DNA of 64,000 nucleotides. It comes from Atopobiaceae bacterium. Its GTDB lineage: Bacteria > Actinomycetota > Coriobacteriia > Coriobacteriales > Atopobiaceae. The stretch lies in contig JAKVOB010000001.1 in NCBI GenBank assembly GCA_022483015.1, positions 682,001 through 746,000 on the forward strand, read 5' to 3'. Position numbers and translations under genes: made by a program. This document shows positions 14,437-64,000 of this stretch, piece after piece. The notes under the pieces were generated by a model, which was given only the letters and a program-made list of their open reading frames with translations, did not search any database and was not told the origin of the DNA. The stretch's first letter is position 1; the number at the start of each line of letters is the position of its first letter.

Positions 14437-14467
14437 ATGCGTCTGGCTCTCATGACGTAGGACCTAT

Positions 14468-14503
14468 GAGGGAGGCCCGGCTGCTGCCGTGGCCTCCCTC
14501 TTT
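14468..14503 (+). terminator. terminator of the alpha operon
   Basis: GAGGGAGGCC (14468-14477) pairs with GGCCTCCCTC (14491-14500), with an inner CGGC/GCCG stem around loop TGCT. A short T-run (TTTC) follows. It lies 31 nt after the rplQ stop. Confidence 0.8.
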
Positions 14504-14556
14504 CATTTCACGTCCCGTAGCGGGCCGACCGCGCAAGAACCGGAGGGAGGGTCGAC

Positions 14557-44636: not shown

Positions 44637-44669
44637 GGTTCGTGTTCTCCCTTGCCGGTGGTCGGGCGC

Positions 44670-45737: not shown

Positions 45738-45738
45738 G

Positions 45739-46800: not shown

Positions 46801-46994
46801 GATGGTTCCTCTCGACGTTGGTATCGCGAACCGCCGTGCGGGCGGTGATGTGCCGAAGCACCAGAGAGTATATCTTCTCGGCCATGCGCATGGGATGGAG
46901 GGACGTCGCGCCTGCCGGCAGGTGTCGACCGTTCGCGTCCGCCGACCGCCCGTTCCTCCCATGGCCCCCAATGGTCACAGCAATCATGCTAAGC

Positions 46995-47004
46995 TGTTTG
47001 AACA
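46995..47004. promoter_or_regulatory. operator-like palindrome before the PTS gene
   Basis: TGTTTGAACA is the exact reverse complement of site 2 (TGTTCAAACA at 22662) in the sugar ABC region. It is 95 bp before the PTS IIBC start. The remaining 298-nt galE-PTS gap holds no gene and no certain promoter. Confidence 0.5.
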
Positions 47005-47098
47005 AGTTGGGACGGCCTGTGGTGGGCGGCAGGGGCACCTGGGCGCATGCACGTCCCAGGCGACGCGGCCATCGAGCTGACGGGGAGAAGCGCCTGCG

Positions 47099-48694: not shown

Positions 48695-48747
48695 CCGCTA
48701 CAATCTTCCACGACGGAGGTCGTCGGCCTGACGGGAGGGGATCGGGT

Positions 48748-49344
48748 TTGGCACGGAACTCGAAGCGGGCCCGCGATGCCCGGCGTGGCACGAGGGCGGA
48801 CTCGGACGAGGGGACCCCTCGTCCTCCCGCATCCCAGGCGCCCGAGCCTTCCCGTGGGCTCGACCGGCTCTTCCTGGTCCTTGAGGTCCTTCTCTGCATC
48901 GTGCCGTTCGTCGCGACGGGAATCGTCATGTCCGGTGCCTCGGCCGCAGGCCAGGACCTCTCCGAATACCTGCGTGATGACGGCGTGGTCCTCGTCGAGT
49001 TCATCGCTGCCATGGCCCAGGTGCTCGTGGCATGGGTCCTGCGCATCGTGCACGACCATCACGCGTGCGGGGATGGTGGATATGCGCTGGCCAACGCGAT
49101 CGGGCTCGTCTGCGGCGAGTTGCTGCTCCAGAACCTCGTCGGGGCGATCGGGTGCGGCCTTGTCCTATGGCGTCTCTGGCGACATGACGCGGCGGCGCTC
49201 GCCCCCTGGGCGCGTGCGCGCGGGGTGGGAGGCGTGCTCGCGGATGTGTCGGGTGCCATCGTGCTGGTCTGCCTGGGCGGCATCTGCACCTTCGCCCTGG
49301 CGAGGCTCTCGGCCCAGGGGCTGATACCCGCTGGGCTGCTCTAG
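48748..49344 (+). CDS. hypothetical four-TM membrane protein
   Basis: A 198-residue protein starting at TTG 48748 (ribosome-binding site GGGAGGGG). A basic, proline-rich N-terminus of about 45 residues (LARNSKRARDARRGTRADSD) is followed by four hydrophobic segments (FLVLEVLLCIVPFVATGIVM, VVLVEFIAAMAQVLVAWVLR, ALANAIGLVCGELLLQNLVG, VLADVSGAIVLVCLGGICTF). No domain was recognised. It lies 53 nt after the PTS gene, on the same strand, and converges on the riboflavin ECF genes. Confidence 0.6.
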   Translation: MARNSKRARDARRGTRADSDEGTPRPPASQAPEPSRGLDRLFLVLEVLLCIVPFVATGIVMSGASAAGQDLSEYLRDDGVVLVEFIAAMAQVLVAWVLRIVHDHHACGDGGYALANAIGLVCGELLLQNLVGAIGCGLVLWRLWRHDAAALAPWARARGVGGVLADVSGAIVLVCLGGICTFALARLSAQGLIPAGLL

Positions 49345-49363
49345 GACGTATCTTCCCTAAGGC

Positions 49364-50158
49364 CTATCCCAGGAAGAGGAGGATGGCGAGGTAGCCTGCG
49401 GCGAGGGCTGCGAAGGCACCGTCACGCGGGTGCAGGCGCAGCTCGTGATAGTGGGTGCGCGCCGCGCCGCCCTCGTAGCAGCGGGCGTCGAGGGCGCGCG
49501 AGAGACCGTTCGCATGTCGTATGGCGCCGGCGAGCAGGGGCACCATGAGGGCCATGGCCGCACGTGCGCGTTCCATGGGACGCCCCGTCTCGAGCGTGCC
49601 GCCGCGTGCGGCCTGGGCCTGGCGGATGTCGGCCGCCTCGTCGGAGAGCGTCGGCACGAAGCGCAGGGCGAGCGACATGACCATGGCGACCTCATGCACC
49701 GGTAGCCCCAGGTGGGACAGGGGCGAGAGCAGGGACTCGAAGGCGTCGGCGAGTGCCGTGGGGGTGGTGGTGACCATGAGGGTCGCGCCCATGACCACGA
49801 GCAGGCCGAAGCGGCACGAGTAGAGCACGGCCGCCCAGACGCCACCGGTCGTGAGACGAACGGGACCCAGGGTCGCGACCACGTCTCCCGTCTGCACGAA
49901 GAGGAGGTTGAAGAGGCCGACCACCAGGAGGAACACGAGGATCCCCCCAACCGACGAGAGCACGCGGCCTGGTCGCACCCCGCAGGCGAGCACGAGGCAT
50001 GCGGTGAGGGCGGCGGCAAGCGCCAGCTGGGCCGGCGTTCCCACGAGCATGCTCGAGACCATGAGCACAAGCATCACGAGCGCCTTGCACCGTGGGTCGA
50101 GCCGGTGGAGGGGCGAGTCGCCGGGGACGTAGCTCCCCATGCCGATGCGTGCGGACAT
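49364..50158 (-). CDS. ECF transporter T component (riboflavin operon)
   Basis: A 264-residue EcfT with membrane segments such as ALVMLVLMVSSMLVGTPAQL and the cytoplasmic coupling region (ALRFVPTLSDEAADIRQAQA, then ARGGTLETG) carrying the A-R-G triplet. The N-terminal YVPGDSPLHRLDPRCKALVM resembles the other EcfT at 15939. It is the third gene of the ribU-ecfAA-ecfT operon, one base after the ATPase gene, and scaffolds the S protein to the ATPases. Confidence 0.9.
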   Translation of the reverse strand: MSARIGMGSYVPGDSPLHRLDPRCKALVMLVLMVSSMLVGTPAQLALAAALTACLVLACGVRPGRVLSSVGGILVFLLVVGLFNLLFVQTGDVVATLGPVRLTTGGVWAAVLYSCRFGLLVVMGATLMVTTTPTALADAFESLLSPLSHLGLPVHEVAMVMSLALRFVPTLSDEAADIRQAQAARGGTLETGRPMERARAAMALMVPLLAGAIRHANGLSRALDARCYEGGAARTHYHELRLHPRDGAFAALAAGYLAILLFLG

Positions 50159-50159
50159 C

Positions 50160-51911
50160 TCAGCGCCTCCCCGCGATGGCATCTGCGAGTGCACCGATGG
50201 TGAGGGGGCCACGCCCGCCTGGTGCGAGCGGGGGGCCGGCATGCCCGCGTCGGTCGAGGAGCCGTGCCCAGGCAAGGGGTGACGGCACCCCGAGTCCCAT
50301 GGCCGTGAGCTCGTCCCCATGCGAGAAGACCTCCGCCGGCGTGTCGTCGAGGCACATGCGCCCGTCGTCGAGCACGCAGACGCGGTCGGCGAGCTCGGCG
50401 ACCGTCTCCATGGAGTGCGAGACGAGCAGGATGGTCCTGCCGCCCTGATGGAGGCGGCGGACGAGGTCGGTCACGTGCGCGGCCCCGCGCGGGTCGAGCC
50501 CGCTCGTGGGCTCGTCGAGCACGAGGACGTCAGGGTCCGAGGCAAGGGTCCCCGCAATCGCGGCCAGGCGCTGCTGACCTCCCGAGACCTCGAAGGGGGA
50601 GGAGTCGGCCAGGTCCGATATCCCCAGGAATTCGAGGGTGCGGGTCACGCGGTCGGAGACCTCCTGCGCATCGAGGCCGAGGTTGGTCGGGCCGAACGCG
50701 ACGTCCTGGGCGATGGTCTGGGCGAAGAGCTGGCGCTCGGGGTGCTGCATGACATAGCCCACATGGCCCCTGAGCTCGCGCCGGCGCCTGCGGTCATGGG
50801 TGTCGACGCCGCAGATGCGGACGTTCCCCCGGTCTGGCATGGCAAGGGCGCACACGAGGTGGGCGAGCGTGGACTTGCCCGAACCGGTCTGTCCCACGAG
50901 GGCCACGAGCTCGCCTTTCCCCAGGGCCAGCGTGAGGTCGTCCACGGCCGGGCGTGTCCCATACGAGAAGGACACATGGTCGAGCTCGACGACGGTGTCG
51001 GCCTGGGCGGGCTCCACCTGGGGACCCGTGGGCGCGCGGTGCCTCTCGGCCGCCTGTATGCCCTTGTGGGCGACCGCGTCGAGAAGGACCTCGTCATCGC
51101 AGGTGGAGGGCACGTCGACCGAGCGGTCGCGGAGGGCATGCGAGAGGCGCGCCGCGAAGGGCATCGTCAGGCCGAGCGCGAGGAGCTCGTCGCCATGCGA
51201 GAAGACCTCCTCGGGGGTCCCCTCGAGGGCGACGTGACCGTGGTCGAGCACGAGGACACGGTCAGCCGAGAGGGCCTCGTCCACGAAGTGGGTGATGTGG
51301 ATGGTGGTGACGTCCGTCTCGGCAAGCTCGTCGAGCACGTGCATGATGCCGGCACGGCCGCGTACGTCGAGCGAGGCACCGGGCTCGTCGAGCACGAGGA
51401 CGGACGGTCCCATGGCGAGCGCCCCCGCCAGGGCCACACGCTGCTGCTGGCCACCCGACAGGTGGGTGGGGTCGGCCTGGGCATAGGCCCCCATCGCCAC
51501 ACGCCCCAGCTCGCGGTCCACGCGACGGCAGATCTCGCCACGAGGCATGCCGAGGTTCTCGGGGCCGAAGGCGACGTCGTCTGCGACCACGGTGGTCACG
51601 ATCTGGTCCTCGGGATTCTGGAAGACCAGCCCGATGTCTCGGCGTGCGGCGCGGTAGGCGTCCGGATCGGGCGTCCCGTCCGAGAAGACCGTCCTGCCTG
51701 CCAGCTCGACGGTGCCACCGTCGGGGGCCAACAGGCCGCAGAGGACGCTCGCGAGCGTGGACTTGCCGCTCCCGTTGGCGCCGAGGACGCAGAGCCGCTC
51801 GCCGGCAGCCACATCGAGGTCGATGCCGGCGAGGGCCCAGGTGGAGCCCTCGTCATAGGTGAGCCGCACGCCGCGCAGGCGGATGGGCGGCCTGTCAGGC
51901 GAGCCCGCCAC
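50160..51911 (-). CDS. ECF transporter, fused A1-A2 ATPase (riboflavin operon)
   Basis: A 583-residue protein with two ABC ATPase domains. Domain 1 has GANGSGKST, VFQNPEDQIVTTVVADDVAF, LSGGQQQRVALAGALAMGPS and VLVLDEPGASLDVRG. Domain 2 has GQTGSGKST, VMQHPERQLFAQTIAQDVAF, VSGGQQRLAAIAGTL and VLDEPTSGLDPRG. Both domains look active, unlike the first domain of the orphan fusion at 14557. The gene is 3 nt after ribU and is probably dedicated to riboflavin uptake. Confidence 0.93.
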   Translation of the reverse strand: MAGSPDRPPIRLRGVRLTYDEGSTWALAGIDLDVAAGERLCVLGANGSGKSTLASVLCGLLAPDGGTVELAGRTVFSDGTPDPDAYRAARRDIGLVFQNPEDQIVTTVVADDVAFGPENLGMPRGEICRRVDRELGRVAMGAYAQADPTHLSGGQQQRVALAGALAMGPSVLVLDEPGASLDVRGRAGIMHVLDELAETDVTTIHITHFVDEALSADRVLVLDHGHVALEGTPEEVFSHGDELLALGLTMPFAARLSHALRDRSVDVPSTCDDEVLLDAVAHKGIQAAERHRAPTGPQVEPAQADTVVELDHVSFSYGTRPAVDDLTLALGKGELVALVGQTGSGKSTLAHLVCALAMPDRGNVRICGVDTHDRRRRRELRGHVGYVMQHPERQLFAQTIAQDVAFGPTNLGLDAQEVSDRVTRTLEFLGISDLADSSPFEVSGGQQRLAAIAGTLASDPDVLVLDEPTSGLDPRGAAHVTDLVRRLHQGGRTILLVSHSMETVAELADRVCVLDDGRMCLDDTPAEVFSHGDELTAMGLGVPSPLAWARLLDRRGHAGPPLAPGGRGPLTIGALADAIAGRR

Positions 51912-51914
51912 GGG

Positions 51915-52487
51915 TCATTCTCCCACGAGCTTGGAGACGCTCTTGTAGACCAGGAAGGTGACCACGCAGTTGATGGCAATCTTGAGCAGGTTGAACGGCA
52001 GCAGGATCGGCACGATCATGGCCGCGACCTGGTCGACCGAGACGGCCGAGTAGAGCGGCGTCACGACGAGGTTGCCTCCGATGCAGGCGGCCAGGCAGAC
52101 GACGGCGCCCACGGCCATGCCGATGACGGCACCCCTGCGGGTGTGGATGTGCTGGTAGACGAGGGCGGTGGGAACCGTGAGCGAGACGGCGGCCACGATG
52201 CCCATGAGGGCGCCGAACGGGTCCACGAAGAGGTGGGGCAGCCACATGAGCACGCAGACGAGGGCGCCCGTGGCGGGTCCGAAGGCGAGCCCGGCCACGA
52301 GGCAGACGATGCCCGAGGGGTCGTACTTGAGGTAGGGGGCCGCCGGGAAGATGGGCAGCTCGATGAAGCTCGCGACGATGGCGACTGCCACGAAGAGCGC
52401 ACAGGTGGCGATGCGTCGCGTGTTCCAACCACCTATGGTGCCGGTGGTGGAGTGCGTCGCGGGACGTGCAGAGGGATTGGTGGCCAT
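51915..52487 (-). CDS. ribU: riboflavin ECF transporter S component
   Basis: A 190-residue membrane protein with about six segments. The stretch FIELPIFPAAPYLKYDPSGI is the RibU-type substrate-binding signature, and FGALMGIVAAVSL follows. It binds riboflavin or FMN precursor outside the cell and passes it inward through the downstream ecfAA-ecfT products. ATG 52487 has AAGGAGGG upstream, directly next to the FMN riboswitch, so vitamin status probably controls its translation. Confidence 0.9.
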   Translation of the reverse strand: MATNPSARPATHSTTGTIGGWNTRRIATCALFVAVAIVASFIELPIFPAAPYLKYDPSGIVCLVAGLAFGPATGALVCVLMWLPHLFVDPFGALMGIVAAVSLTVPTALVYQHIHTRRGAVIGMAVGAVVCLAACIGGNLVVTPLYSAVSVDQVAAMIVPILLPFNLLKIAINCVVTFLVYKSVSKLVGE

Positions 52488-52499
52488 GGAAGGCCCTCC

Positions 52500-52628
52500 T
52501 TCTCTTGTGTCCGGACTTTGACCGTTGGCCCTGGAATCACACCAGGTCAGCCGCTTTACGCGGGTCGCGGGCTCCGGCATGCGCACATGCCGTTACCGCC
52601 AGTGGGGAATCTCACCCCGCCCTGAGAA
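52500..52628 (-). ncRNA. FMN riboswitch (RFN element) controlling the riboflavin ECF operon
   Basis: Read on the minus strand, the conserved RFN blocks appear in order: CAGGGCGGGGTGAGATTCCC, CACTGGCGGTAA, GAGCCCGCGACCCGCG, GACCTGGTGTGATTCCAGG, GCCAACGGTCAAAGTCCGGA. The closing stem pairs TTCTC with GAGAA, and the ribosome-binding site AAGGAGGG of ribU follows at once, so FMN binding probably blocks translation. An extended -10-like TGCTAGCAT lies just upstream (near 52640). Confidence 0.93.
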
Positions 52629-52809
52629 TGCGATGACGATGCTAGCACATGTGCATGGGTGCATGACAGGGGTGTTTCGCTCATCATCTGCTCCTTGCTG
52701 GTCCAGCAACGCTCGTGGCCTGTGACCTGGCATAGGCTCGCAGCGGCGGCATGTGACTCGTGAGCTGATGCGGCATGAGCCTGATTGTTCGGCAATTTAC
52801 GATTTTGAG

Positions 52810-52838
52810 TTGACTTGGCAAAACAGGCGCCGTAATAT
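52810..52838 (+). promoter_or_regulatory. strong sigma-70-type promoter of the met-nif-like operon
   Basis: TTGACT at 52810-52815, a 17-bp spacer and TAATAT at 52833-52838 match the -35/-10 consensus at five of six positions each. It is the best promoter in the window. Transcription would start near 52845, leaving about 350 nt of leader before metN. The 160 nt before it (52630-52800) hold no gene. Confidence 0.8.
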
Positions 52839-52844
52839 CTCTCA

Positions 52845-53192
52845 TAACCTAGCGAATCACTAGGAATTATCAAGCTACGATACGAGAGGGGTAGAGTCCA
52901 TGACCAGCCACACGTCCAACAAACGCGACGTCTTCATGGTTGGCAGGCTCCCCCTATGCTATGGCCATTTTCGTATCGAACGAATGATGTGCTCCCGGAT
53001 GTGTTGTTCGACTCATCGCTAGTCGGTGCATCCGGGAGAAGAGACGAAGTGCTCGCGGCCGCTGGTCGGCGCGCGTCTTCGTCTACGGTTCCCTCCCCAG
53101 ACAACTCAGGTGTCGGATGAGCGAGTCGCGCCCATCGACAAACGGTAGAGAAGGAGCGAAGCGACACGCCTCGCGTGGGCAGTCGCAGCTAT
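52845..53192 (+). promoter_or_regulatory. long structured 5' leader of the met-nif-like operon (candidate riboswitch)
   Basis: About 350 nt without a gene, rich in nested stems. CCTAG 52848/CTAGG 52860. An 8-bp stem CGATACGA 52878-52885 with TCGTATCG 52971-52978, enclosing CCATGA 52898/TCATGG 52934 and ACGTC 52912/GACGT 52927. A 10-bp stem 52992-53001 with 53029-53038, holding CGACT/AGTCG. An 8-bp stem 53042-53049 with 53077-53084. Then GCGAC/GTCGC (53161/53182), around the ribosome-binding region. I could not match it to SAM-I, SAM-IV, SAM-VI, cobalamin or T-box consensus from memory. It may sense a metabolite of the pathway. Confidence 0.5.
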
Positions 53193-54053
53193 ATGAAGCC
53201 ATACATACAGATTCATGACCTACACAAGTCATTCGATACGAACAAGGGCCGCATCGAGGTTCTCAAGGGTGTTGACCTGCAGATAGCTCGTGGTGAGATA
53301 TTCGGGATCGTGGGTTTCTCTGGTGCAGGCAAGTCGACGCTCGCGCGCTGCATCAACCATCTCGAGACCCCTGATGCAGGTGACGTCCTTATCGACGGTG
53401 TCGACATCACCAGCCTCGATGCCGCCAGCCTGCGGGCCGAGCGGCAGAAGGTCGCCATGATCTTCCAGAACTTCAACCTCTTCTCGTCCAAGACGGTCTA
53501 CGGCAACATCGCCTATCCCCTGAGAATCGTCGGGACGAAGAAGGACGAGGTGGACGCTCGCGTACGGGAGGCAGCCAGCTTCGTGGGCCTCGGGGATAAG
53601 CTCCCGGCCTATCCGGGCGGTCTCTCCGGTGGCCAGAAGCAGCGTGTGGGAATCGCCCGTGCCATCATCTCGAAGCCCGACGTGCTCCTCTCTGACGAAG
53701 CGACCTCGGCGCTCGACCCGCAGACCACGATCCAGATTCTCGACCTGCTCAAGCGCATCAACCGCGAGACGGGCATCACCATCGTCATGATCACCCACGA
53801 GCTTGATGCCATTCGATATACCTGCCACAACATGGCTGTCCTCGAGGAGGGGAAGGTCATCGAGCAAGGCGCGGTGGACGAGATCTTCTCGAACCCGCGG
53901 AGCCGTACGGGCGCTCTGTTCGCGAAGGTCTTTCGCAGCCTCCAGTCAGTCCCCGTCCGTGCCGAGGCCATGCGTGGCCCGGTCGTCGAGCGGAGGCATC
54001 AGGACCCGTCGGCACGAGAGGCGCGTGGCACCCTCGAGGCGGTCGGCGCATGA
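53193..54053 (+). CDS. metN: methionine-type ABC transporter ATPase, lacking the NIL domain
   Basis: A 286-residue ATPase of the MetN family: Walker A GFSGAGKST, the Q-loop MIFQNFNLFSSKTVYGNIAY, signature LSGGQKQRVGIARAI and SDEATSALDPQTT. MetN is usually about 340 residues with a C-terminal NIL/ACT-like domain that binds methionine and shuts transport; this copy ends about 50 residues after the ATPase core with a charged tail, so that control seems lost. ATG 53193 has no close ribosome-binding site; AAGGAG at 53151 would be brought near if the 53161-53186 hairpin folds. GTG 53175 in frame is an alternative. It overlaps metI by 4 nt. Confidence 0.9.
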   Translation: MKPYIQIHDLHKSFDTNKGRIEVLKGVDLQIARGEIFGIVGFSGAGKSTLARCINHLETPDAGDVLIDGVDITSLDAASLRAERQKVAMIFQNFNLFSSKTVYGNIAYPLRIVGTKKDEVDARVREAASFVGLGDKLPAYPGGLSGGQKQRVGIARAIISKPDVLLSDEATSALDPQTTIQILDLLKRINRETGITIVMITHELDAIRYTCHNMAVLEEGKVIEQGAVDEIFSNPRSRTGALFAKVFRSLQSVPVRAEAMRGPVVERRHQDPSAREARGTLEAVGA

Positions 54054-54760
54054 GCCTTCTCAAGTATCCGTTGTGGGAGGTGGTCGCGCACTCCTTCAGC
54101 GCGGATGTCTGGTCCGTCATCATCCCGGCAATCGGCGAAACGCTCTATATGGCACTCCTCGCCTCACTCATCATGCTCGTGGGTGGCATCCTCGTGGGAT
54201 TGGCTCTCATGCTCACGAATCCCAATGGGCTTCTCCCCGTGAAGCCGGTGCATGCGGTGGTGGGGACCTTCATCAACATCCTGCGCTCCCTGCCGGAGAT
54301 GGTCATGATCATCCTCATGATTCCCGTGACGCAGCTGCTGTTTGGCCAGTCGTATGGATCGAACTCGTGCATCATCGCGGTCTCGGCCTGCTGCATTCCC
54401 TTCTATGCCCGCATCGTCGAGAGCTCCCTGCTTGAGGTCGACCGAGGTGCCATCGATGCCGCCAGGTCGATGGGGAGCACCAATGCCCAGATCGTGTTCG
54501 GTGTCATCATCCCCGAGACCCTTCCCTCGCTCACGCGAGGCTTCACCACTGCCATCATCTCGGTGATCTCGATGACGGCCCTGTCGGGTATGTTCGGCGC
54601 GGGAGGCCTGGGAGATATAGCCGTGCGCTTTGGCTACCAGCGCTTCCAGCACGACGTGCTTCTCGCGGCGGTCTACGCACTGCTCGTGATCGTCTCGGTC
54701 GTGCAGATAGCGGGCAACGTCTGCTCCCGTGCCGAGCTGCGCCGTCGGGCCCTCGTGTGA
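54050..54760 (+). CDS. metI: methionine-type ABC transporter permease
   Basis: A 236-residue permease with five membrane segments, matching MetI: YMALLASLIMLVGGILVGLA, FINILRSLPEMVMIILMIPV and the coupling loop (VDRGAIDAARSMGSTNAQIV), ending with SGMFGAGGLGDIAVRFGYQR. It moves D/L-methionine or a related small sulfur compound with MetN and MetQ. The start overlaps the metN stop (ATGA). A 87-nt gap with nothing recognisable separates it from metQ. Confidence 0.93.
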   Translation: MSLLKYPLWEVVAHSFSADVWSVIIPAIGETLYMALLASLIMLVGGILVGLALMLTNPNGLLPVKPVHAVVGTFINILRSLPEMVMIILMIPVTQLLFGQSYGSNSCIIAVSACCIPFYARIVESSLLEVDRGAIDAARSMGSTNAQIVFGVIIPETLPSLTRGFTTAIISVISMTALSGMFGAGGLGDIAVRFGYQRFQHDVLLAAVYALLVIVSVVQIAGNVCSRAELRRRALV

Positions 54761-54847
54761 GGGAGCCCTCCCGAGCATCCCATCACCGTCTCTGGCATCA
54801 CATCAATTCGCTATTAATCGGTCCATCACTTGGATAAGGAAACCTCC

Positions 54848-55753
54848 ATGTCAAATCACACTTCGTTTACATCTGCCAACGTCCTTCTTACTCGACGTGA
54901 CTTCACACGACTGGCTATCGGTGCGCTGGGCCTCACGGCACTCTCCGGCTGCTCTTCCGCGGACGCGTCCGCTCCCGGCACGGCTGCTGCGACTGCGGCG
55001 GCCACCTATCCCATCACCAAGGCTTCGGATGGCACGTACGTGCTCAAGGCCATTGCTGATGCCACGCCCCACGCCGAGATCCTCGCCTATGCAGCGCCGG
55101 CCCTCGCGGCTGATGGCATCACCGTCGATCTCGTCTCCACAGCCCCGGACGACACCCTCAACCAAAGGACCGAGGACGGCGAGATCGACTTCAACTATGA
55201 CCAGCATGTCCCCTACCTCAACGAGTGGAACCAGAAGAACGCGGGCGACCTGGTGAGCGCCGGCAACATCCACGTGGAGCCCATCACCGCCTACTCGGAC
55301 ACGTACGCAACCACGGCCGACGTGCCCGATGATGCCAAGGTGGCCATTCCCAACAACGCGACCAACGAGTACCGGGCCCTCAAGATCCTCGAGGACAACG
55401 GCTTCATCGTCCTGTCCGATGCGTCGAAGGACAGCCTGTCGGCCTCCAAGGAGGACATCACCACATACGTGAGACCGGTCGAGATCGTCGAGCTTGATGC
55501 CGCCCAGATCATTCCCACCCGGGAGAGCTTCGACCTCTACATCACCAATACCAACCGCTACATCGAGTCAGGTATCACTGCCAACAAGCTCTTCAGCGAG
55601 AGTGCCGACAGCCCCTACGCGAACGTCGTCGTGGTGCGTCCTGAGAACAAGGACAACGAAGCCATCACGAAGCTCGTCGAGGTGCTGCGCTCCGACGACG
55701 TGAAGGGATTCATCGAGCAGAAGTACAACGGCGCTGTGGTCCCGTCCGCCTAG
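54848..55753 (+). CDS. metQ: NlpA/MetQ-type substrate-binding lipoprotein with a Tat-like signal
   Basis: A 301-residue NLPA-family binding protein. The N-terminus has a twin-arginine pattern (TRRDFTRLAIGALGLTALSG) ending in lipobox LSGC, Cys at residue 35, so it may be exported folded through Tat and then lipidated. The mature part (TPHAEILAYAAPALAADGIT, EIDFNYDQHVPYLNEW, VAIPNNATNEYRALKILEDN) is typical of methionine-binding proteins. ATG 54848 has AAGGA upstream. The nifD-like gene begins only 41 nt later with its own ribosome-binding site, linking uptake to the reductase. Confidence 0.9.
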   Translation: MSNHTSFTSANVLLTRRDFTRLAIGALGLTALSGCSSADASAPGTAAATAAATYPITKASDGTYVLKAIADATPHAEILAYAAPALAADGITVDLVSTAPDDTLNQRTEDGEIDFNYDQHVPYLNEWNQKNAGDLVSAGNIHVEPITAYSDTYATTADVPDDAKVAIPNNATNEYRALKILEDNGFIVLSDASKDSLSASKEDITTYVRPVEIVELDAAQIIPTRESFDLYITNTNRYIESGITANKLFSESADSPYANVVVVRPENKDNEAITKLVEVLRSDDVKGFIEQKYNGAVVPSA

Positions 55754-55794
55754 ACGGCCCATCGCTTCGTCCATCTCACGCGAAAGGAGAGACC

Positions 55795-57279
55795 ATGCCT
55801 GCACAGGGCATCAACCTCGAGTTGGCGGCGGTACCCGTCCGCGAGGTCCGCATCAACTCGGTGACGAGCTACCAAGGGAGTGCTGCTGACCTCGTCCATG
55901 ATGCGCGCCAAGGCTGCGTCAAGGATTCCGGTCGTTCGTTCAGCCAGTGCCTGGGATGCTCGACCACCAAGGCTGCCTGCATGACCGTCCTCATCCAGGA
56001 CGGTGCCGTGATCAGCCATGGGCCAGTCGGCTGCTCCTCATGTCTGAGCGGCTATGACTTCACCTATCGGGTGAACGCCCCCCTACGTGGCGTGAAGCAT
56101 CCCACGACCAGGCACATCTACTCCACCAACCTCAAGGAGACTGACACCGTCTATGGGGGAGGGGCCAAGCTGGCGCGCACGATTCGCGAGGCGTATGAGC
56201 GCTCGGGTCATCCCCACGCTATCTTCGTGCTCACCACCTGCGCGGCAGGCATCATCGGCGACGATGTCGAGAGCATCTGCAGCGAGGCCGAGGAGCGAAT
56301 CGGCGTTCCCGTGGTTGCGATCTTCTGCGAGGGATTTCGTTCCAAGGTCTGGACCAGCGGATTCGATGCTGCTTACCATGGCATCGCCCGCAAGCTAATC
56401 AAGCCCGCGCGCGAGCGTCGTGACTTCGTCAACGTCATCAACTTCTGGGGCAGCGATGTCTTCGGGAAGTGGCTCGAGCCCTTTGGGGTCAAGCCCAACT
56501 ACATCACGCCCTACTCGACGGTCAACACGCTCGAGCATGCGAGCGAGGCACGTGCGACCATCCAGGCCTGCTCGTCGCTCGGCTCCTATCTGGGTGCGGT
56601 TCTCGAGCAGGACTTTGGCGTCCCCGAGGTCCAGACGGCCCCTCCCTACGGCATCAGGCAGACCGAGAGATGGTTCGAGGAGCTGGGCCGCATCCTGGGC
56701 CAACCTGACGTGGCTGCTCGAGTCGTGGAGGAGCGTCGTGAGAGATACCTTCCCCAGATCGAGGAGCTACGCCACCAGCTCGCAGGCAAGCGCGCCTACG
56801 TCGCTGCCGGGGCAAGCCATGGGCACGCGCTCATAGCCGTTCTGCGGGAGCTGGGCCTTGACGTGGCGGGCACGTTCATCTTCCACCACGATGTCACCTA
56901 CGACAACCACAACACGGAGGCCGACCTGCTTGGTCATGACGTGAGCGACTATGGCGACATCCCTCATTACAACGTGTGCAACAAGCAGGAGTACGAGCTC
57001 GTCAACATGCTCTCGCGCCTGCGGCCCGACGTGTTCATCGCGCGTCATGGCGGCATGACGTTGTGGGGTGCTCGCTTTGGCATACCCACCCTGCTCATCG
57101 GTGACGAGCATTACATGATGGGCTACGAGGGGCTCGTGCGCTATGGGAGAAGGCTCGTAGAGACGGTCGAGAACGATGAGTTCGTCGAGAACCTGTCACA
57201 GCATGCGATTAACCCCTACACGAAGTGGTGGTACGAGCAGCCGACAGACACGTTCCTCAAGGGAGGCGCATCAAGGTGA
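55795..57279 (+). CDS. nitrogenase-like component 1, NifD-type subunit
   Basis: A 494-residue oxidoreductase/nitrogenase component 1 protein. P-cluster-type cysteines are present: C55 (LGCSTTKAAC), C80 (SHGPVGCSSC) and C149 (TTCAAGIIGDD), matching NifD C62/C88/C154. C259 (QACSSLGSYLGAVLEQDFGV) aligns with the FeMo-co ligand C275. The region expected to hold the second ligand His442 (RFGIPTLLIGDEHYMMGYEG) has no His at that position, the nearest being H439. Extra Cys (C41, C52, C62, C83) cluster near the N-terminus. It probably forms an alpha2beta2 reductase with the next gene. A group IV nitrogenase-like enzyme fits better than Nif, Vnf or Anf. Confidence 0.85.
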   Translation: MPAQGINLELAAVPVREVRINSVTSYQGSAADLVHDARQGCVKDSGRSFSQCLGCSTTKAACMTVLIQDGAVISHGPVGCSSCLSGYDFTYRVNAPLRGVKHPTTRHIYSTNLKETDTVYGGGAKLARTIREAYERSGHPHAIFVLTTCAAGIIGDDVESICSEAEERIGVPVVAIFCEGFRSKVWTSGFDAAYHGIARKLIKPARERRDFVNVINFWGSDVFGKWLEPFGVKPNYITPYSTVNTLEHASEARATIQACSSLGSYLGAVLEQDFGVPEVQTAPPYGIRQTERWFEELGRILGQPDVAARVVEERRERYLPQIEELRHQLAGKRAYVAAGASHGHALIAVLRELGLDVAGTFIFHHDVTYDNHNTEADLLGHDVSDYGDIPHYNVCNKQEYELVNMLSRLRPDVFIARHGGMTLWGARFGIPTLLIGDEHYMMGYEGLVRYGRRLVETVENDEFVENLSQHAINPYTKWWYEQPTDTFLKGGASR

Positions 57280-58625
57280 GTAAACAAGAGGCGGGCGTGA
57301 TCGAACAGGGGCGCTACACGTGTGCCATCGGGGCCCTCGAGACGGTTGCCGCCATCCCACATGCGATGCCCATCCTGCACTCGGGCCCAGGCTGTGGCGA
57401 GATGCAGCAGGGCTTCTTCGGCAACGTGGGCGGTTACGCCGACGTCAACACCACGCCCTGCACCAACTTCACCGAGCGTGAGGTCGTCTTTGGTGGGGTC
57501 GACCGGTTGCGCGAGAACATCGCCAACGCCTCCAAGGTCCTCGACTCGGACCTCCAGGTGGTGCTCACGGGCTGTACCGCGGGCATCGTGGGCGACGACG
57601 TCGAGAGCGTGGTCGAGGAGTTCCGTGAGCAAGGTCAGCCGATCGTCTCGGTCGAGACTCCCGGCTTCAAGAGCAGCAACTTTGAGGCGCACAGTGTGGT
57701 GGTCAACGCCATCATCGATCAGTACGTCGATGCGACGGCGAACGACGCGACGGTCCGCAGTGAGAGGGCATGCGTCAACCTGTTCGCGTCCATCCCCATG
57801 CAGGACCCCCTCTGGAAGGGAAACCTGCGCGAGTACAAGCGGCTTCTCGAGGGCATCGGCCTCAAGGTGCACGTGCTGTTCGGCATGGAGAGCGCCGGCG
57901 TGGCCGAGTGGCGCCAGATTCCGCAGGCGAATTTCAACGTGCTCGTCTCGCCATGGTATGGCCTGCCGATCGTGCGTCACCTGGAGCAGCTCTATGGCCA
58001 GCCCTTCGTGCAATTTCCCCACGTGCCCATCGGGGCCAACGAGGCGGAGGCCTTCCTGCGGAGCGTGCTTGATGCAGCGCAGGACAACGATGCTGGCCTG
58101 GACCTCGATGCTGCGGAGCATTTCATCACGTGCGAGCGTGCCTCCTACTACGAGGCTCTCGACACGCTCGCCGTGTTCCTGCTGGAGTTCCGTTACGGAC
58201 TGCCTGTCTTCGCCCACATCATCCACGATGCGGGCTATGTCGTAGGCATGTCTCGGTTCCTGCTGCATGAGACCGGCATCGTGCCAACGGAGCAGTTTGT
58301 GGTCGACGGCACGCCCAAAAGGTTCCAGGGCGCCATTCGTGCGGACCTTGCCGCGACGTCAGACAAGCGGACCATTCCCCTCACGTTCGAGCCGGATGCC
58401 GGGCACGTGCAGGACCTCATCCGTGACATCACCCATGAGGGACGTGGCCTTGTCATCGGCAGCGGCTGGGACAGGGAGCTTGCTCGCGAGAAGGGCTACG
58501 ATTTCCTCTCTGCGGCCGTACCCTCGCCCTATCGGCTCAATCTGACCACCAACTACGTTGGCTTCACCGGGGGCCTGCGTCTCATCGAGGACGTCTACAA
58601 CGGCGTCCTGGCGACGTACCGATAG
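57276..58625 (+). CDS. nitrogenase-like component 1, NifK-type subunit
   Basis: A 449-residue partner subunit, shorter than NifK (about 520). The P-cluster-type cysteines C16 (GRYTCAIGALE), C40 (LHSGPGCGEMQ) and C100 (LTGCTAGIVGDD) match NifK C70/C95/C153. TNFTEREVVFGGVDRLRENI is a strong NifK/NifE signature. The long N-terminal arm of NifK is missing. It starts at GTG 57276, overlapping the nifD-like stop (GTGA), with GGGAGG upstream, so the two subunits are coupled and probably equimolar. With NifD-like it would form the catalytic reductase fed by the NifH-like protein. Confidence 0.85.
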   Translation: MSKQEAGVIEQGRYTCAIGALETVAAIPHAMPILHSGPGCGEMQQGFFGNVGGYADVNTTPCTNFTEREVVFGGVDRLRENIANASKVLDSDLQVVLTGCTAGIVGDDVESVVEEFREQGQPIVSVETPGFKSSNFEAHSVVVNAIIDQYVDATANDATVRSERACVNLFASIPMQDPLWKGNLREYKRLLEGIGLKVHVLFGMESAGVAEWRQIPQANFNVLVSPWYGLPIVRHLEQLYGQPFVQFPHVPIGANEAEAFLRSVLDAAQDNDAGLDLDAAEHFITCERASYYEALDTLAVFLLEFRYGLPVFAHIIHDAGYVVGMSRFLLHETGIVPTEQFVVDGTPKRFQGAIRADLAATSDKRTIPLTFEPDAGHVQDLIRDITHEGRGLVIGSGWDRELAREKGYDFLSAAVPSPYRLNLTTNYVGFTGGLRLIEDVYNGVLATYR

Positions 58626-58639
58626 GGGAGGTGGTACGC

Positions 58640-59005
58640 GTGGCAGATGGCGGGAGGCATCGCGTGGCGGTTGCTAGCAGCAATGGCGACTACGTCGATG
58701 AGCACTTTGGCAATGCCTTGTACTACCAGGTCTACGACAGCGACGGGCACGGATGGTCCTTCGTGGAGACGCGCAAGTCGCGTCCGGGATGCGGTGGTCC
58801 CGGGGGCTGTGGGGGAGGGGCCTGCCTGCTGTCCGAGACGCTCGCGGACTGCGAGGCGGTTTTCGTGCTGAGAATCGGCCCCTCTGCGGCGGTTTCCGCC
58901 GCGCGTGCGGGGCTTCGCGTGTTCGAGGCGGGAGGCCCTGTGGATGACATGCTCGACTACGTGTTTGCCAACGGGTTGCTTGACGACACTGGGGAGGTGA
59001 TGTGA
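58640..59005 (+). CDS. NifX/NifB-C-terminal-like cofactor carrier protein
   Basis: A 121-residue protein of the dinitrogenase iron-molybdenum-cofactor biosynthesis family, which carries NifB-co or FeMo-co. It has VAVASSNGDYVDEHFGNALY at the start and AARAGLRVFEAGGPVDDML near the end. Between them is a dense Cys/Gly segment (RPGCGGPGGCGGGACLLSET) that could hold a metal cluster. GTG 58640 is preferred over GTG 58631 by spacing to GGAGGT. It sits between the nifK-like and nifB-like genes, the right place to hand a cofactor from the radical-SAM maturase to the reductase. Confidence 0.82.
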   Translation: MADGGRHRVAVASSNGDYVDEHFGNALYYQVYDSDGHGWSFVETRKSRPGCGGPGGCGGGACLLSETLADCEAVFVLRIGPSAAVSAARAGLRVFEAGGPVDDMLDYVFANGLLDDTGEVM

Positions 59006-59006
59006 G

Positions 59007-59882
59007 ATGGCGCATACGCTCGAGGAGCTCTCGCTCCTGCACCCCTGCTTCGCGCAGGGAGGCCTCAACGACAAGGGACGTATCCACCTGCCTGTGAGCC
59101 CGGGATGCAACATCCAGTGCAAGTTCTGCGTACGCAAGATTGATGACGAGGCACAGGCGCCGGGTGTCTCGGCAGACATCATCACGCCGCAGGAGGCTGC
59201 CGATGCGGTCGCGCGTGCCGTGGCGGCTGAGCCTGGCATCACGGTGGCGGGCATCGCGGGCCCTGGGGACACGCTCGCAAGCCCTCATGCCCTCGAGACC
59301 TTCCGTCTCGTCAAGAGGCGGTTTCCCAATATGCTTGCCTGCATGAGTACCAATGGTCTCATGCTCCCCGACAAGGTCGACGAGATCGTCGAGGTGGGCG
59401 TCGACACGCTTACCGTGACCGTCAACGCGGTCGATCCTGCCATCCAGGAACAAATCTGCTCGCACGCGATCTATCACGGCAGAACCTACACGGGCACCGA
59501 TGCCGCGAGGCTGCTCATCACCAACCAGCTCGAGGGCATCCGCGCGGCGAGCGCGGCGGGCATCACCGTGAAGGTGAACACCGTGCTCGTGCCTGAGATT
59601 AACGCTGACCACGTGCCCGAGGTCGCGCGGTCGGTCGCAGACGCAGGCGCAAGCCTATACAACATCATCCCGCTCATTCCACAAGGCGAGCTCGCCTGGT
59701 GTTCCACGCCAGACTGCGCACTCCTAGGCAGGCTTCGCGTCGAGGCGGGTGAGTGCCTGCAGGTGTTCTGTCACTGCCAGAGGTGTCGCGCCGACGCGGT
59801 CGGCATCCTCGGCGGGACGGACATCTCGCGCAGGGTCTATGCTCGGCCGATTCGGGCGGAGCAGACCTTCTCGCACGGCTAG
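59007..59882 (+). CDS. NifB-like radical SAM cofactor maturase
   Basis: A 291-residue radical SAM protein with the NifB layout: HPCF at residues 12-15, SPGCNIQCKFCVRK with the CX3CX2C cluster (C34, C38, C41), AGPGDTLASP, TLTVTVNAVDP and the C-terminal FCHCQRCRADAVGILG that binds the K2-type cluster. NifB fuses two [4Fe-4S] clusters into the 8Fe-9S-C precursor NifB-co. It has no NifX domain fused; that domain is encoded just upstream. Its presence implies the reductase carries a carbide-containing Fe-S cofactor and not a simple [4Fe-4S]. One base separates it from the upstream gene. Confidence 0.9.
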   Translation: MAHTLEELSLLHPCFAQGGLNDKGRIHLPVSPGCNIQCKFCVRKIDDEAQAPGVSADIITPQEAADAVARAVAAEPGITVAGIAGPGDTLASPHALETFRLVKRRFPNMLACMSTNGLMLPDKVDEIVEVGVDTLTVTVNAVDPAIQEQICSHAIYHGRTYTGTDAARLLITNQLEGIRAASAAGITVKVNTVLVPEINADHVPEVARSVADAGASLYNIIPLIPQGELAWCSTPDCALLGRLRVEAGECLQVFCHCQRCRADAVGILGGTDISRRVYARPIRAEQTFSHG

Positions 59883-60815
<933 letters not shown>

Positions 60816-60953
60816 GGGTTGAGTCAGGGGGAGTGACGAGGGGGCATTGCGTTCGTCACGCCGCTCAGGCCGCTTTGTCCCGACATGGCGGAGAAATAGC
60901 AGCCCATGTCGGCTAGAGAGATTCGGTTGCTGTCGCTCGAGGGGGCCGTGCCA

Positions 60954-61241
60954 TCAGAGCACATAATCAAAACTCGATGGTAGTCGTCCTCGCTGCAAGT
61001 AGATTGGAGATGGTTTCGCTTCTTCTACAAGCCTGTTCTGCGAGAACCGGCTGGCTAGCTTCTCCACGTTGGTCATGTGGGTGTTACTTGGGGTGGCGAA
61101 GAGGCGGATTCGCTCGTCGATGGGTTTTAGAACATCCCATTGTCTCTCTGCATGTCTACCAAAAGCACCTCTGGTTTGATCGTGGTCGCAATCTCGTTGC
61201 CACAGAGGCCTTTTGGGAGGTGGCCGCAGCGCGGTGATGGC
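60954..61241 (-). pseudogene. decayed or start-less reading frame
   Basis: On the minus strand, 95 codons are open from the stop of the next gene to TGA 60956-60954, without a clear start codon. The translation contains stretches of ordinary composition (WDVLKPIDERIRLFATPSNT, NVEKLASRFSQNRLVEEAKP) unlike shadow frames. The region 60860-61140 also has lower GC than its neighbours. I do not recognise the family; it could be the tail of a lost gene. The rest of the 426-nt gap holds no feature beyond the hairpin at 60834-60859. Confidence 0.3.
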
Positions 61242-62181
61242 TCAGGCTTTACGTGGCGCGAACGCGGGGCGCAGTCCCGGGAAGCAGAACATGGCGGCGA
61301 CCACCCATATGAGCGCGCCAGCCGAGACCTCAAGGGCATACATGAGCGGGTCGATTCCAGGGATGAGCAGCGCCAGCAGCATGACGGCGCCGGCGGGTGG
61401 CAGCCAGGTGGCGAAGCCTGCCCAGATGCCCACGAGGATCACGAAGCCGAGAAGCCCGCAGGTGGCAAGCGGCACTCCGGCATCTGCCAGCAGGCGACAA
61501 CATGCGCCTGTCACGGCTGCGAGCACGAGCACGCCCACACCCCTCCAGGGGCGAAGCCGCAGCGTGAAGTCGGGGCGTGAGAACGTCGTGAATGCCACGA
61601 GCAGCGGTGGCACGGCGAAGAGCACGTTGCCGGTGAGGTAGGCGGGGGCCGAGAGCACGGCGAAGACCACGGACCTGCGGCCCCAGTAGGAGAGGGTGCG
61701 CACCATCGAGTCACGCAGGGGCTTGAAGCGGATCGGTTCGCGCATTCCCACATGCTCCAGCACGACCTGGCCCGCGCACACGAGTCCCACCATCACGACC
61801 ACGGCGGCAGGGTAGGTCCAACTGGTGGTTCCCAGGAGCACCGGCAGGATGGCGGCCGAGACCATGGGGCTCATGTCGGCACCGGCGACGTTCATCGCGA
61901 TGGCGCAGAACAGGTAACCCAGAAGCGCGCGTACCCAAAGCGACCCCGGGACGTAGAGGTTGAGCAGGATCCCAAAGACGGCTCCCGCTCCCATGAGCAC
62001 GAGCATGCGCGGGCCGGCTCACGTTCCATGCCTGGTGGGGGAGGATCCACGCACCGCAGAGGATGGCGGCCATCTCGGGGAAGAGGACCTCGGTCAGGCC
62101 CGTGACCTGCGCGATGCCGCACATGAGGGCTACGAAGGCGGCCGAGAGCGCAATGGGGAGCCAGCGGTCGCGCAGGGACAT
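61242..62181 (-). pseudogene. integral membrane protein gene with a +1 frameshift
   Basis: The start (MSLRDRWLPIALSAAFVALM, FPEMAAILCGAWILPHQAWN) runs from ATG 62181, then shifts frame near 62015 at CGGCCCGCG; one C fewer would join it to RMLVLMGAGAVFGILLNLYV and the rest, giving about 312 residues. The product has roughly eight hydrophobic segments in two similar halves, somewhat like HPP or FUSC-type membrane proteins, but I cannot assign a family. Either a sequence error in a C-run or a recent mutation explains the break. Confidence 0.6.
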
Positions 62182-62260
62182 CGGACGCTCTCCTCCTCAT
62201 GGCTCGCTACGTGTCATACGACGCTCGCCATGGTAGCGCAAGGGGCCTGTCCTCGACCGC

Positions 62261-62293
62261 TCGCCCCCGTGCATGGGTCGTTCGCCCCCGTGC
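62261..62293 (+). promoter_or_regulatory. 12-bp direct repeats upstream of a promoter
   Basis: TCGCCCCCGTGC occurs at 62261-62272 and again at 62282-62293, exactly 21 bp (two helical turns) apart. Directly after them are TTGACG (62296-62301) and TGTATT (62318-62323), a plausible -35/-10 pair with 16-bp spacing, for the gene at 62353. The arrangement suggests an activator or repressor binding site. Confidence 0.45.
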
Positions 62294-62352
62294 GTTTGAC
62301 GTGGATATCCATATGGGTGTATTGAGCATTCCCCACCATCGAAGGAGCGTCC

Positions 62353-63447
62353 ATGAGCGAGCGACCCATCCAACGGTCCCATGAGCCCGACCTGGCTGGC
62401 CTTGCGCTGTCCGAGACGGAGCTTGCCACCCTCGAGCGGGCTCGTTCCGACGCGCTTGCCGAGACGGAGCGGGTCGAGTTCTCGGACGGTCCGATCGTCT
62501 TGCTCGCACGCATGCTCTCCTCCTCTCCCTTCCGCGATCCTGGTGCGGCGGCGGTGCAGCTCGGCGAGCTCCAGGCCCAGTTCTATCGCCTCAAGGATGA
62601 CACCCTGGATGTGGCCTCGGACGAGGATGTGCTGGCCTCGCTGTCTGATGCCTTCGAGGCTGCGGCGGGAGATCTCGCGCTTACCTATGACCTCGCGTTC
62701 GATGAGCTACGTCGGCAGGACGCCGGGGACCCAACGGATCCCGAGGCCGTCGCCTCGCCATCGTTTGGGTCCTCCCTCCCTGCATGGGTGGCCTATGATC
62801 GCTTGGTCTCAGCCGACTATGTCGTGTCCCAGGCGGGCGACGCTGCGCTTGTGCGTCTCGAGTCGCTGGATGCCGATGACCTGCGCGAATCGTTCGAGCG
62901 AGGGCTTCGCGGCATCGAGGAGAAGGTCTCGCGGACTCATGACCTCTGGAGGCAGGCGTGTGAGGGTGCGCCACCCTTCGCAAGCCGAGCCCTTGCCGAC
63001 ACCCTCACGAGCATCGGGCAGGGATTCGATGCCTACGAGCCTCGCCTCCTCGCGCAGGAGTTTCCGGCGGACATCGACTATCAGTTGGCCCATCCCGTCT
63101 CGGAGGAGCTTGTGGGCATCGACTACGTGGCTGTATGGCTGCACCGTCTCTGCGTGGAGGATGACCTGCTCTCCCATCTCGGGGAGCGAACCTGTCGCCG
63201 CGTGCTCGACGCGGGCCTTCCCGAGTGGCACGAGCAGGTGGCCAATGTCTGCGAGCTCGTCATCTGGGGTCTGCTCGACGAGGCGGCAGGGCCTGGTGCC
63301 GCACCCGATGGCCTGGTCCAAGCGGGTGAGCACCTCTCGGCAAGCCTCCTCCTCGAGGATGAGGCCGCGGCCTACCTCGATGGCATGGCACGGGAGATGG
63401 CGACGAGACGAGCGCTCGCGCAGGGTTCGGGACGCGTTGGGGCATGA
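62353..63447 (+). CDS. uncharacterised protein (possibly DUF6179-like)
   Basis: A 364-residue soluble protein, acidic (many Asp/Glu), without signal peptide or membrane segments. Segments such as AHPVSEELVGIDYVAVWLHR and RLCVEDDLLSHLGERTCRRV recall the DUF6179 family of unknown function, an identification made from memory and not firm. ATG 62353 has AAGGAG upstream. The gene is divergent from the frameshifted membrane-protein gene and converges on the GrpB-like gene. Confidence 0.5.
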   Translation: MSERPIQRSHEPDLAGLALSETELATLERARSDALAETERVEFSDGPIVLLARMLSSSPFRDPGAAAVQLGELQAQFYRLKDDTLDVASDEDVLASLSDAFEAAAGDLALTYDLAFDELRRQDAGDPTDPEAVASPSFGSSLPAWVAYDRLVSADYVVSQAGDAALVRLESLDADDLRESFERGLRGIEEKVSRTHDLWRQACEGAPPFASRALADTLTSIGQGFDAYEPRLLAQEFPADIDYQLAHPVSEELVGIDYVAVWLHRLCVEDDLLSHLGERTCRRVLDAGLPEWHEQVANVCELVIWGLLDEAAGPGAAPDGLVQAGEHLSASLLLEDEAAAYLDGMAREMATRRALAQGSGRVGA

Positions 63448-63473
63448 CGCGTGGGTCGTGCACAAATCTCAAC

Positions 63474-63551
63474 TAACGGACGACCGAGTGCGGGATGGGG
63501 GCAATCATCTCCCGTCGCAGGATGAGTCCATTTGGACTCGGTCGTCCGTTA
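63474..63551. repeat. 16-bp perfect inverted repeat between converging genes
   Basis: TAACGGACGACCGAGT (63474-63489) is the exact reverse complement of ACTCGGTCGTCCGTTA (63536-63551). The 46-nt middle can form a smaller stem (CGGGATG with CATCTCCCG, one bulge). It lies in the 140-nt gap between the gene ending at 63447 and the one ending at 63588. It could be a bidirectional terminator, a protein-binding site or the remains of a small mobile element. Confidence 0.7.
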
Positions 63552-63587
63552 TCGAAGAAATGTGTCAGGCCGCCTTGCTCGCAACGG

Positions 63588-64000
63588 CTAGGCCTCCGCG
63601 CGTGCGAGCGTCACCTGTTCGCGGATGAACGCACCCTTGGCCTCGGTGTAGGCGTCGCGGTCGTGCTCGTAGTGCGCCGCGAGCTCGCGCTTGAGGGCCA
63701 CATAGTCGGCGGCCACCTCGGGATGTGTGCGCAACCAGTCGCGAAAGACGAGCTCGTCCCAGTCTCCAGGCTCCTTCACGTGCAGATGGAAGACCTTCTC
63801 GGCGAACCCCCGGAGGGTGTAGCCCTGGTTGAGGTCGATGCTGTGGTCCGTATCGTCGCGGCACATCACCACCCAGTCGGCCCCCTCGAGCAGCGCGATT
63901 GCCTGGTCCATGTCATAGCCGGGTGCGAGCTCGAGCAGGATGTCGACGATGGGCTTGGCCACGAGGCCGTCCACGCTGGTGGACCCGATGTGGCTCATGC
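63588..64000 (-). CDS. GrpB/UPF0157 family protein (partial, 5' end beyond window)
   Basis: The visible 137 codons end at TAG 63590-63588. HIGSTSVDGLVAKPIVDILL is the GrpB family signature (a nucleotidyltransferase-like fold), and ENVFHLHV-type and WDELVFRDWLRTHPEVAADY segments follow in the usual order (here EKVFHLHVKEPGDW). The N-terminal part, upstream of the conserved HIGSTS, lies past base 64000. Function of the family is not established. Confidence 0.85.
   Translation of the reverse strand, partial: MSHIGSTSVDGLVAKPIVDILLELAPGYDMDQAIALLEGADWVVMCRDDTDHSIDLNQGYTLRGFAEKVFHLHVKEPGDWDELVFRDWLRTHPEVAADYVALKRELAAHYEHDRDAYTEAKGAFIREQVTLARAEA

Follow-up and report, generated by a model that had tools for sequence, protein, structure and literature searches.

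What does a nitrogenase-like reductase do in a genome in which the nitrogenase assembly proteins NifE and NifN are not found? The question is raised by a 64,000-nucleotide (nt) stretch of DNA from a gut-type Atopobiaceae bacterium (assembly GCA_022483015.1, contig JAKVOB010000001.1, positions 682,001 to 746,000), here called the window; features are numbered within it and lie on the plus strand unless stated, and the host genome is a single contig of 2.28 Mb, estimated to be ~96% complete. Two adjoining genes of the window, D (55795–57279) and K (57276–58625), both with intact reading frames, encode the subunits of a NifDK-like pair. An earlier note on this DNA took NifDK as the nearest relative, reported that the pair keeps the P-cluster and cofactor cysteines and lacks the cofactor histidine, and suggested that NifB-co or an L-cluster passes directly into the reductase. 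Here we place the pair firmly in group IV-A of the nitrogenase-like enzymes, and propose that the eight-gene unit to which it belongs probably serves anaerobic sulfur salvage by an L-cluster C–S reductase.

Cluster ligands and ancestry of the DK pair

The closest sequence matches to D and K in the PDB are the MarD and MarK chains of Rhodospirillum rubrum (9fmg, 9d9u), with E-values (D, 5e-125; K, 2e-111) that exclude a chance match; NifD and NifE structures lie far behind in this ranking. MarDK, and not NifDK as the earlier note had it, is the nearest solved relative, and window D shares ~40% identity with R. rubrum MarD (RrMarD). An AlphaFold model of window D (mean predicted local distance difference test score, pLDDT, 86.8; predicted template-modelling score, pTM, 0.89) matches 9fmg_A with a Z-score of 47.7 and a root-mean-square deviation of 1.8 over 465 residues, as against Z-scores of ~29–30 for vanadium nitrogenase, NifE and NifD.

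In the Mar structure (PDB 9FMG), the P-cluster is held by MarD C66/C91/C158 and MarK C32/C56/C121, and the cofactor is an [Fe8S9C] L-cluster on Cys270 and His429 that contains no molybdenum, vanadium or homocitrate; the protein was made together with the NifB-like MarB (PMC12552129). By alignment, C55/C80/C149 and C259 of window D correspond to MarD C66/C91/C158 and C270, and C16/C40/C100 of window K to the three MarK cysteines, which are kept in 104–105 of 105 aligned K sequences. The earlier assignment of these residues as P-cluster and cofactor cysteines therefore stands. The K cysteines carry these numbers because the start is taken at GTG 57276, probably the true start, which overlaps the D stop by 4 nt (GTGA).

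The column of NifD His442 (R-Q-[ML]-H-S) reads Gly436 in window D, within L-[IL]-G436-D, as the earlier note had seen. H439, a candidate for the vacant place, falls outside this column and is variable even among proteins with an R-H loop (locus L011 reads GDVNV). R417-H418 of window D align instead to Arg428-His429 of MarD, a histidine that earlier sequence analysis had missed because its loop is not conserved in nitrogenases (PMC12552129), and the equivalent of H418 is invariant in 85 of 85 IV-A D sequences. In the alignment, the histidine ligand of the cofactor is thus not lost: it sits in the R-H loop instead, as H418.

Further residues of the Mar active site have counterparts in window D (W186 for W195, F190 for F199, H364 for H375 and C62 for C73), and two Mar positions near the cluster are changed, His194 to Val185 and Gln74 to Met63. 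Across an alignment of 85 IV-A D sequences, with five canonical NifD-type rows as controls, Mar C66, C73, C91, C158, W195, F199, C270, H375, R428 and H429 are conserved in 84–85 of the 85 (all rows with letters there), and the full Mar-type ligand set is present in every one. The controls keep the four cysteines and read V, V, S, Q, H, A, a gap and G at positions 73, 74, 194, 195, 199, 375, 428 and 429. Viewed from the nitrogenase side, window D has Gly436 at His442, Trp186 at Gln191, Phe190 at His195 and Cys62/Met63 at Val70; nitrogenase V70, Q191, H195 and H442 are all swapped for the Mar set, the D protein of Endomicrobium proavitum included. By homology, we infer that the cluster identities and the electron path of the window enzyme are those of Mar.

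When 58 D proteins were compared in a maximum-likelihood tree, window D fell in a 33-member clade (support 100/98) with sequences from Clostridia, Paenibacillus, Chlorohelix, Synergistaceae, Treponema and Endomicrobium. This clade is group IV-A because the E. proavitum D, 61% identical to window D, falls within it; the group has been named Nfa (PMC9147875, PMC11423573). It is sister (99/95) to the clade of RrMarD, which joins loci L105, L044 and L106 at 100/100, and membership of window D in Mar sensu stricto (IV-C) was rejected on this placement. The sequence evidence thus puts the window enzyme firmly in a known and widespread group, relatives of which are encoded by at least 579 stretches of GTDB genomes in one scan. 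Few members of the host's family encode a IV-A enzyme, and the single same-genus genome searched has none.

Group IV enzymes also occur in other combinations. Ruminococcus albus 8 and Paenibacillus sinensis have many PF00148 paralogues, with Mar-clade, IV-A and other group IV copies together. Loci L012, L018, L122 and L123 form a separate group IV subclade (100/100) in which C66/C91/C158/C270 are kept and the R-H loop is absent. A plasmid of Candidatus Chlorohelix allophototropha (Chloroflexota) carries a IV-A B-X-H-D-K set beside an O-acetylhomoserine (OAH) sulfhydrylase gene (28285–49742).

A PF00148 search of the host genome returned five strong places: D, K and three component-1-like proteins at C1:152–161 kb. 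NifE and NifN were not found in the genome, the three C1 proteins scoring at most 48 bits against a NifE cut-off of 505 and falling well short of that for NifN too, and neither was NifV, for which the single match is a 2-isopropylmalate synthase. Window D itself stays below the NCBIfam cut-offs for nifD (128 of 654 bits) and nifE (162 of 505), as well as those for vnfD and anfD, and K below that for nifN (51 of 327). The absence of nifE, nifN and nifV in the presence of nifB, first noted in the window, holds genome-wide by these profile searches, and no nifEN turned up elsewhere. Passage of NifB-co or an L-cluster straight into the reductase, without molybdenum, homocitrate or an EN scaffold, is accordingly a sound reading of the homology, with a published precedent in Mar; the part of the earlier proposal that lacks support is a cofactor free of histidine.

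A second nitrogenase-like cluster lies at C1:146000–165999 (minus strand, 3474–16562 of that stretch). It encodes a NifH-like protein, two pairs of component-1-like PF00148 proteins (four in all), and HypF, HypD and HypE, with adjoining HydF (544 bits) and HydE (522 bits). One of its component-1 proteins has matches in 36 of 121 same-family genomes, 34 of them with at least two matches, often ~7 kb apart. The cluster possibly encodes a cofactor pathway in which a nitrogenase-type reductase is linked to Hyp and Hyd maturation.

The gene unit, its leader and its sulfur context

D is preceded by genes for a methionine-type ATP-binding cassette (ABC) transporter: the ATPase gene metN (53175–54053, probable ATG start 53193; NCBIfam ABC_MetN 307 bits, under the equivalog cut-off of 500), the permease gene metI (54050–54760; NCBIfam MetI E 1e-42, under cut-off) and a gene for a metQ/NlpA-type substrate-binding lipoprotein (54830–55753; PF03180 209 bits). 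K is followed by X, encoding a NifX/NafY-like cluster-binding protein (58631–59005; PF02579 65 bits), B, encoding a radical S-adenosylmethionine (SAM) NifB core without a fused NifX domain (59007–59882; NCBIfam nifB 271 bits, under the cut-off of 344), and H, encoding a NifH/MarH-type Fe protein with [4Fe-4S] ligands C99 and C134 (59934–60815; TIGR01287 447.7 bits, over the cut-off of 394). In a motif table, HPC, CxxxCxxC, AGPGD, TVTVN and CxxCRxDAxG of NifB are intact. All eight open reading frames (ORFs) from metN to H are intact, and the gaps are 41 nt between metQ and D, −4 between D and K, 5 between K and X, 1 between X and B and 51 between B and H. With such tight gaps and a common strand, 53175–60815 reads as a single operon, metN-I-Q-D-K-X-B-H.

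Ahead of metN lies a sigma-70-like promoter (TTGACT-17 nt-TAATAT, 52810–52838), a consensus match that alone is no evidence of function, followed by a 40-codon leader ORF, MTSHTSNKRDVFMVGRLPLCYGHFRIERMMCSRMCCSTHR (52900–53022). The ORF ends in MMCSRMCCSTHR before its stop codon, has GAGAGGGG upstream, and packs three Met and three Cys into eight codons. An RNA fold of 52846–53200 contains a 10-bp stem formed by CTCCCGGATG (52992–53001) and CATCCGGGAG (53029–53038), the 5′ arm of which overlies the Cys/Met codons. Because this fold is barely stabler than shuffled sequences (z −1.7) and a T-run terminator was not seen, we do not claim a classical terminator.

On both strands of the 64-kb window, this is the sole short ORF with six Cys/Met in eight codons, and 20 Markov controls gave none. 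We then applied a common definition (a short ORF, a Shine-Dalgarno-like site and at least five Cys/Met in eight codons) to the intergenic DNA of the window and of 80 IV-A loci. Thirteen leader ORFs were found at 12 of the 81 loci, all on the D strand, against a null mean of 0.15; as there is some kinship among the loci, the 13 do not all count as independent cases. The other residue pairs tested gave at most three ORFs on one strand. The leader ORFs lie 118–475 nt ahead of the next called gene boundary, and the 12 besides that of the window, at 11 loci (L021, L023, L024, L027, L040, L042, L048, L066, L083, L085 and L088), come from several phyla. No strong leader ORF is present at the E. proavitum locus or at Olsenella L064, and Cys/Met short ORFs near 10.3 kb in L038, L039 and L041 were discarded since they lie inside K.

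The leader ORFs are without an Rfam match in the loci tested, and neither a SAM riboswitch nor a T-box reached the gathering threshold in eight IV-A loci. The leaders suggest that the operon is switched by the charging of Cys- and Met-tRNA, perhaps through attenuation or coupling. A riboswitch search of window positions 44000–64000 returned only a flavin mononucleotide (FMN) riboswitch, which belongs to another operon: it lies at 52495–52633 on the minus strand (97.8 bits) and precedes a 223-residue membrane protein (51915–52586, minus strand) and an energy-coupling factor (ECF)-type ABC transporter, both presumably for riboflavin uptake.

Sulfur genes are common around IV-A enzymes. Among 55 IV-A loci that have at least 10 kb of flank, a PF01053-type pyridoxal-phosphate enzyme (cystathionine lyase/OAH sulfhydrylase family) occurs at 41, a cysK-like gene at 30 and a metA-like gene at 8, alongside a B/X-type gene at 48 and H at 39. 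The expectation for PF01053 is ~0.02 per 16 kb, given that the 2.28-Mb host genome itself contains three strong PF01053 genes. When window proteins served as queries against 80 fetched loci, metN, metI and metQ all turned up close to D in 23; the count is limited to this search because the MetN, MetI and MetQ clusters of the flank survey mix the methionine-type transporter with a second, SsuABC/NMT1-like one (named by eye). Many IV-A loci carry a second, non-Met ABC transporter. At the E. proavitum locus, the order is OAH-sulfhydrylase-like (474 bits against a cut-off of 495), substrate-binding protein, permease-like, D, K, X, cystathionine lyase-like, cysK, B, X and H. The H protein of this locus (832000–851000) is just 49% identical to typical IV-A H.

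The host genome encodes two OAH sulfhydrylases above cut-off, and a cystathionine-lyase-like gene that overlaps a cysK-like gene. Sulfite reductase (NIR_SIR domain) was not found in it by a search that was positive in 11 of 14 control genomes. A host without a detected sulfite reductase needs reduced sulfur; therefore an enzyme that releases a thiol fits it, and one that releases sulfite does not.

A proposed route for sulfur and its alternatives

In this host, OAH sulfhydrylase would convert methanethiol to methionine, and homocysteine, formed via SAM, would lead to cysteine through the lyase/CysK-like pair. In the sulfur-salvage route that we propose, the MetNIQ-type transporter would bring in an organosulfur compound. 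NifB would build the [Fe8S9C] L-cluster, which the NifX-like protein probably carries, and the cluster would enter DK directly, without NifEN, molybdenum or homocitrate, a step suggested by the failure to find NifEN. Held by C259 and by H418 of the R-H loop, the L-cluster would receive electrons from H, the ATP-dependent Fe protein, via the six-cysteine P-cluster, and would reductively cleave a C–S bond, as the Mar active-site set and the gene context suggest. The released thiol, likeliest methanethiol from a methylthio-compound, would be made into methionine by OAH sulfhydrylase, and its sulfur would then reach cysteine via the cystathionine lyase and its CysK-like partner, both encoded outside the operon. 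Shortage of both amino acids would turn the operon on through the Cys/Met-rich leader peptide. Both the sulfur role and the regulation are read from gene context. Tentatively, and with our confidence somewhat short of even, we extend the reading to the group: IV-A, the E. proavitum enzyme included, may not be a nitrogenase at all; it may be an L-cluster organosulfur reductase of wide occurrence that acts on a substrate unlike that of Mar and is induced via Cys/Met-rich leaders when both amino acids run short.

Several points weigh against a role in sulfur salvage. We know of no IV-A enzyme that has been assayed on a sulfur substrate. The metY/cysK-type sulfur enzymes sit outside the window operon, elsewhere in the genome, and MetNIQ may import methionine only, co-regulated with the reductase without a common substrate. 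IV-A proteins read I/V/M at position 194 (His in Mar) and T/M/Q/A/V at position 74 (Gln in Mar), so their substrate may differ. Residues 49–53 of the window NifB are A-Q-A-P-G in place of ExRPG, with both E and R lost. The family searches behind the NifEN, NifV and sulfite reductase negatives were loose at first pass, and the PF00148 genome search missed one weak PF00148 protein. Further, the sole experiment described for a IV-A organism is the 15N2 incorporation reported for E. proavitum (PMC9147875, PMC8399215).

That experiment underlies the view of IV-A as a true NifEN-less nitrogenase, in which case the window enzyme would use its L-cluster to fix N2. According to the same two papers, NfaDK are the only nif-like genes of E. 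proavitum; its D is close to window D at 61% identity, and a little N2 is reduced by L-cluster-bound NifEN in work cited in PMC12552129. We nevertheless regard nitrogen fixation as very unlikely. The replacement of V70/Q191/H195/H442 by the Mar set extends to E. proavitum, and Mar does not reduce N2 (PMC12552129); NifEN and NifV were not found in the host genome; the E. proavitum locus itself has metY-like, cystathionine-lyase and cysK genes; and leaders of Cys/Met codons do not point to nitrogen control. Decay of an imported system, with a NifB unable to make the L-cluster and DK empty or filled with simple clusters only, would account for the changed ExRPG motif (A-x-A-PG, where the Arg is retained in 55 of 57 aligned NifB sequences) and for the rarity of the group in the host's family, including its absence from the one same-genus genome searched. 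Eight intact, tightly packed ORFs behind promoter-like and leader sequences, with perfect D/K ligands and remaining NifB motifs, make such decay highly improbable.

The other two alternatives keep a sulfur function and differ in its chemistry. A strict methylthio-alkane reductase, acting on the substrates of R. rubrum Mar (2-methylthioethanol, dimethyl sulfide and ethyl methyl sulfide), would be a special case of the reading proposed here, and has in its favor the common ligands, most active-site residues, the fold (Z 47.7) and a host OAH sulfhydrylase that could use methanethiol. We consider it unlikely, since the tree splits IV-A from MarD with full support, window D is ~40% identical to RrMarD, His194 and Gln74 are changed, and the presence of both Mar-clade and IV-A copies in R. 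albus and Paenibacillus argues for different jobs. Isr, a neighbor within group IV, is accompanied by a sulfonate transporter (PMC11423573), and many IV-A loci have a second, non-Met ABC transporter; these points speak for an Isr-like sulfonate reductase with sulfite as its product. Such an enzyme is barely plausible here: IsrD is without two of the three P-cluster Cys and Cys275, all of which window D keeps, IsrB is BciD-like (PMC11423573) whereas window B is NifB, and sulfite would be useless to a host in which sulfite reductase was not detected.

Significance and relation to known systems

A sulfur role for IV-A is not wholly new: its genes were found near methionine-salvage-type mlp clusters, and such a role was proposed from this (PMC10418091). 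The group, too, was already known, and the value of the present case lies in its Cys/Met leader peptides and in opening the group IV nitrogenase claim to a test. Surveys of nifH and nifD pick up IV-A sequences, and N2 fixation without NifEN is argued from E. proavitum; because 85 of 85 IV-A D proteins, that of E. proavitum among them, carry the ligands of a C–S enzyme and their loci are rich in Cys/Met genes, this disputed claim is directly testable. If the sulfur reading is true, many anaerobes of gut, rumen and termites, with no fewer than 579 stretches encoding relatives in the one scan, would spend an ATP-costly nitrogenase cofactor on sulfur and not on N2 fixation, and methane or other small hydrocarbons may be released.

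Among known systems, the window enzyme shares its clade, its B/H/D/K set, the lack of NifEN, identical ligands and a sulfur-gene context with the group IV-A Nfa enzymes of E. proavitum, Paenibacillus riograndensis and Heliophilum (NflDK1). It differs from them in having metNIQ directly before D and metY/cysK elsewhere in the genome; the nitrogenase report applies to E. proavitum and not to the window enzyme. With R. rubrum MarBHDK (IV-C; PDB 9FMG, 9D9U), it has in common the six P-cluster Cys, Cys270, the Arg428-His429 loop, Trp195, Phe199, His375, Cys73 and a NifB-type maturase, but it belongs to a sister clade at 40% identity, has Val185/Met63 for His194/Gln74, and stands in a metNIQ operon. 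Like IsrBHDK of Rhodobacter capsulatus, it would be a group IV reductase that serves sulfur assimilation alongside an ABC transporter; IsrD, by contrast, has lost two P-cluster Cys and Cys275, and IsrB is not NifB-like. Mo-nitrogenase NifHDK agrees with the window system in fold, in the P-cluster cysteines and the Cys275 equivalent, and in having an Fe protein and NifB, whereas the window system is without His442 in its place, V70/Q191/H195, NifEN and NifV. For the leader, the nearest parallel is mycobacterial: polycysteine leader peptides attenuate cysteine operons there, and these too are short ORFs upstream of sulfur genes in which the regulated amino acid is abundant. The window ORF differs from them in mixing Cys with Met codons and in having a ribosome-binding site, and its relatives are found in Clostridia, Synergistota and Coriobacteriia.

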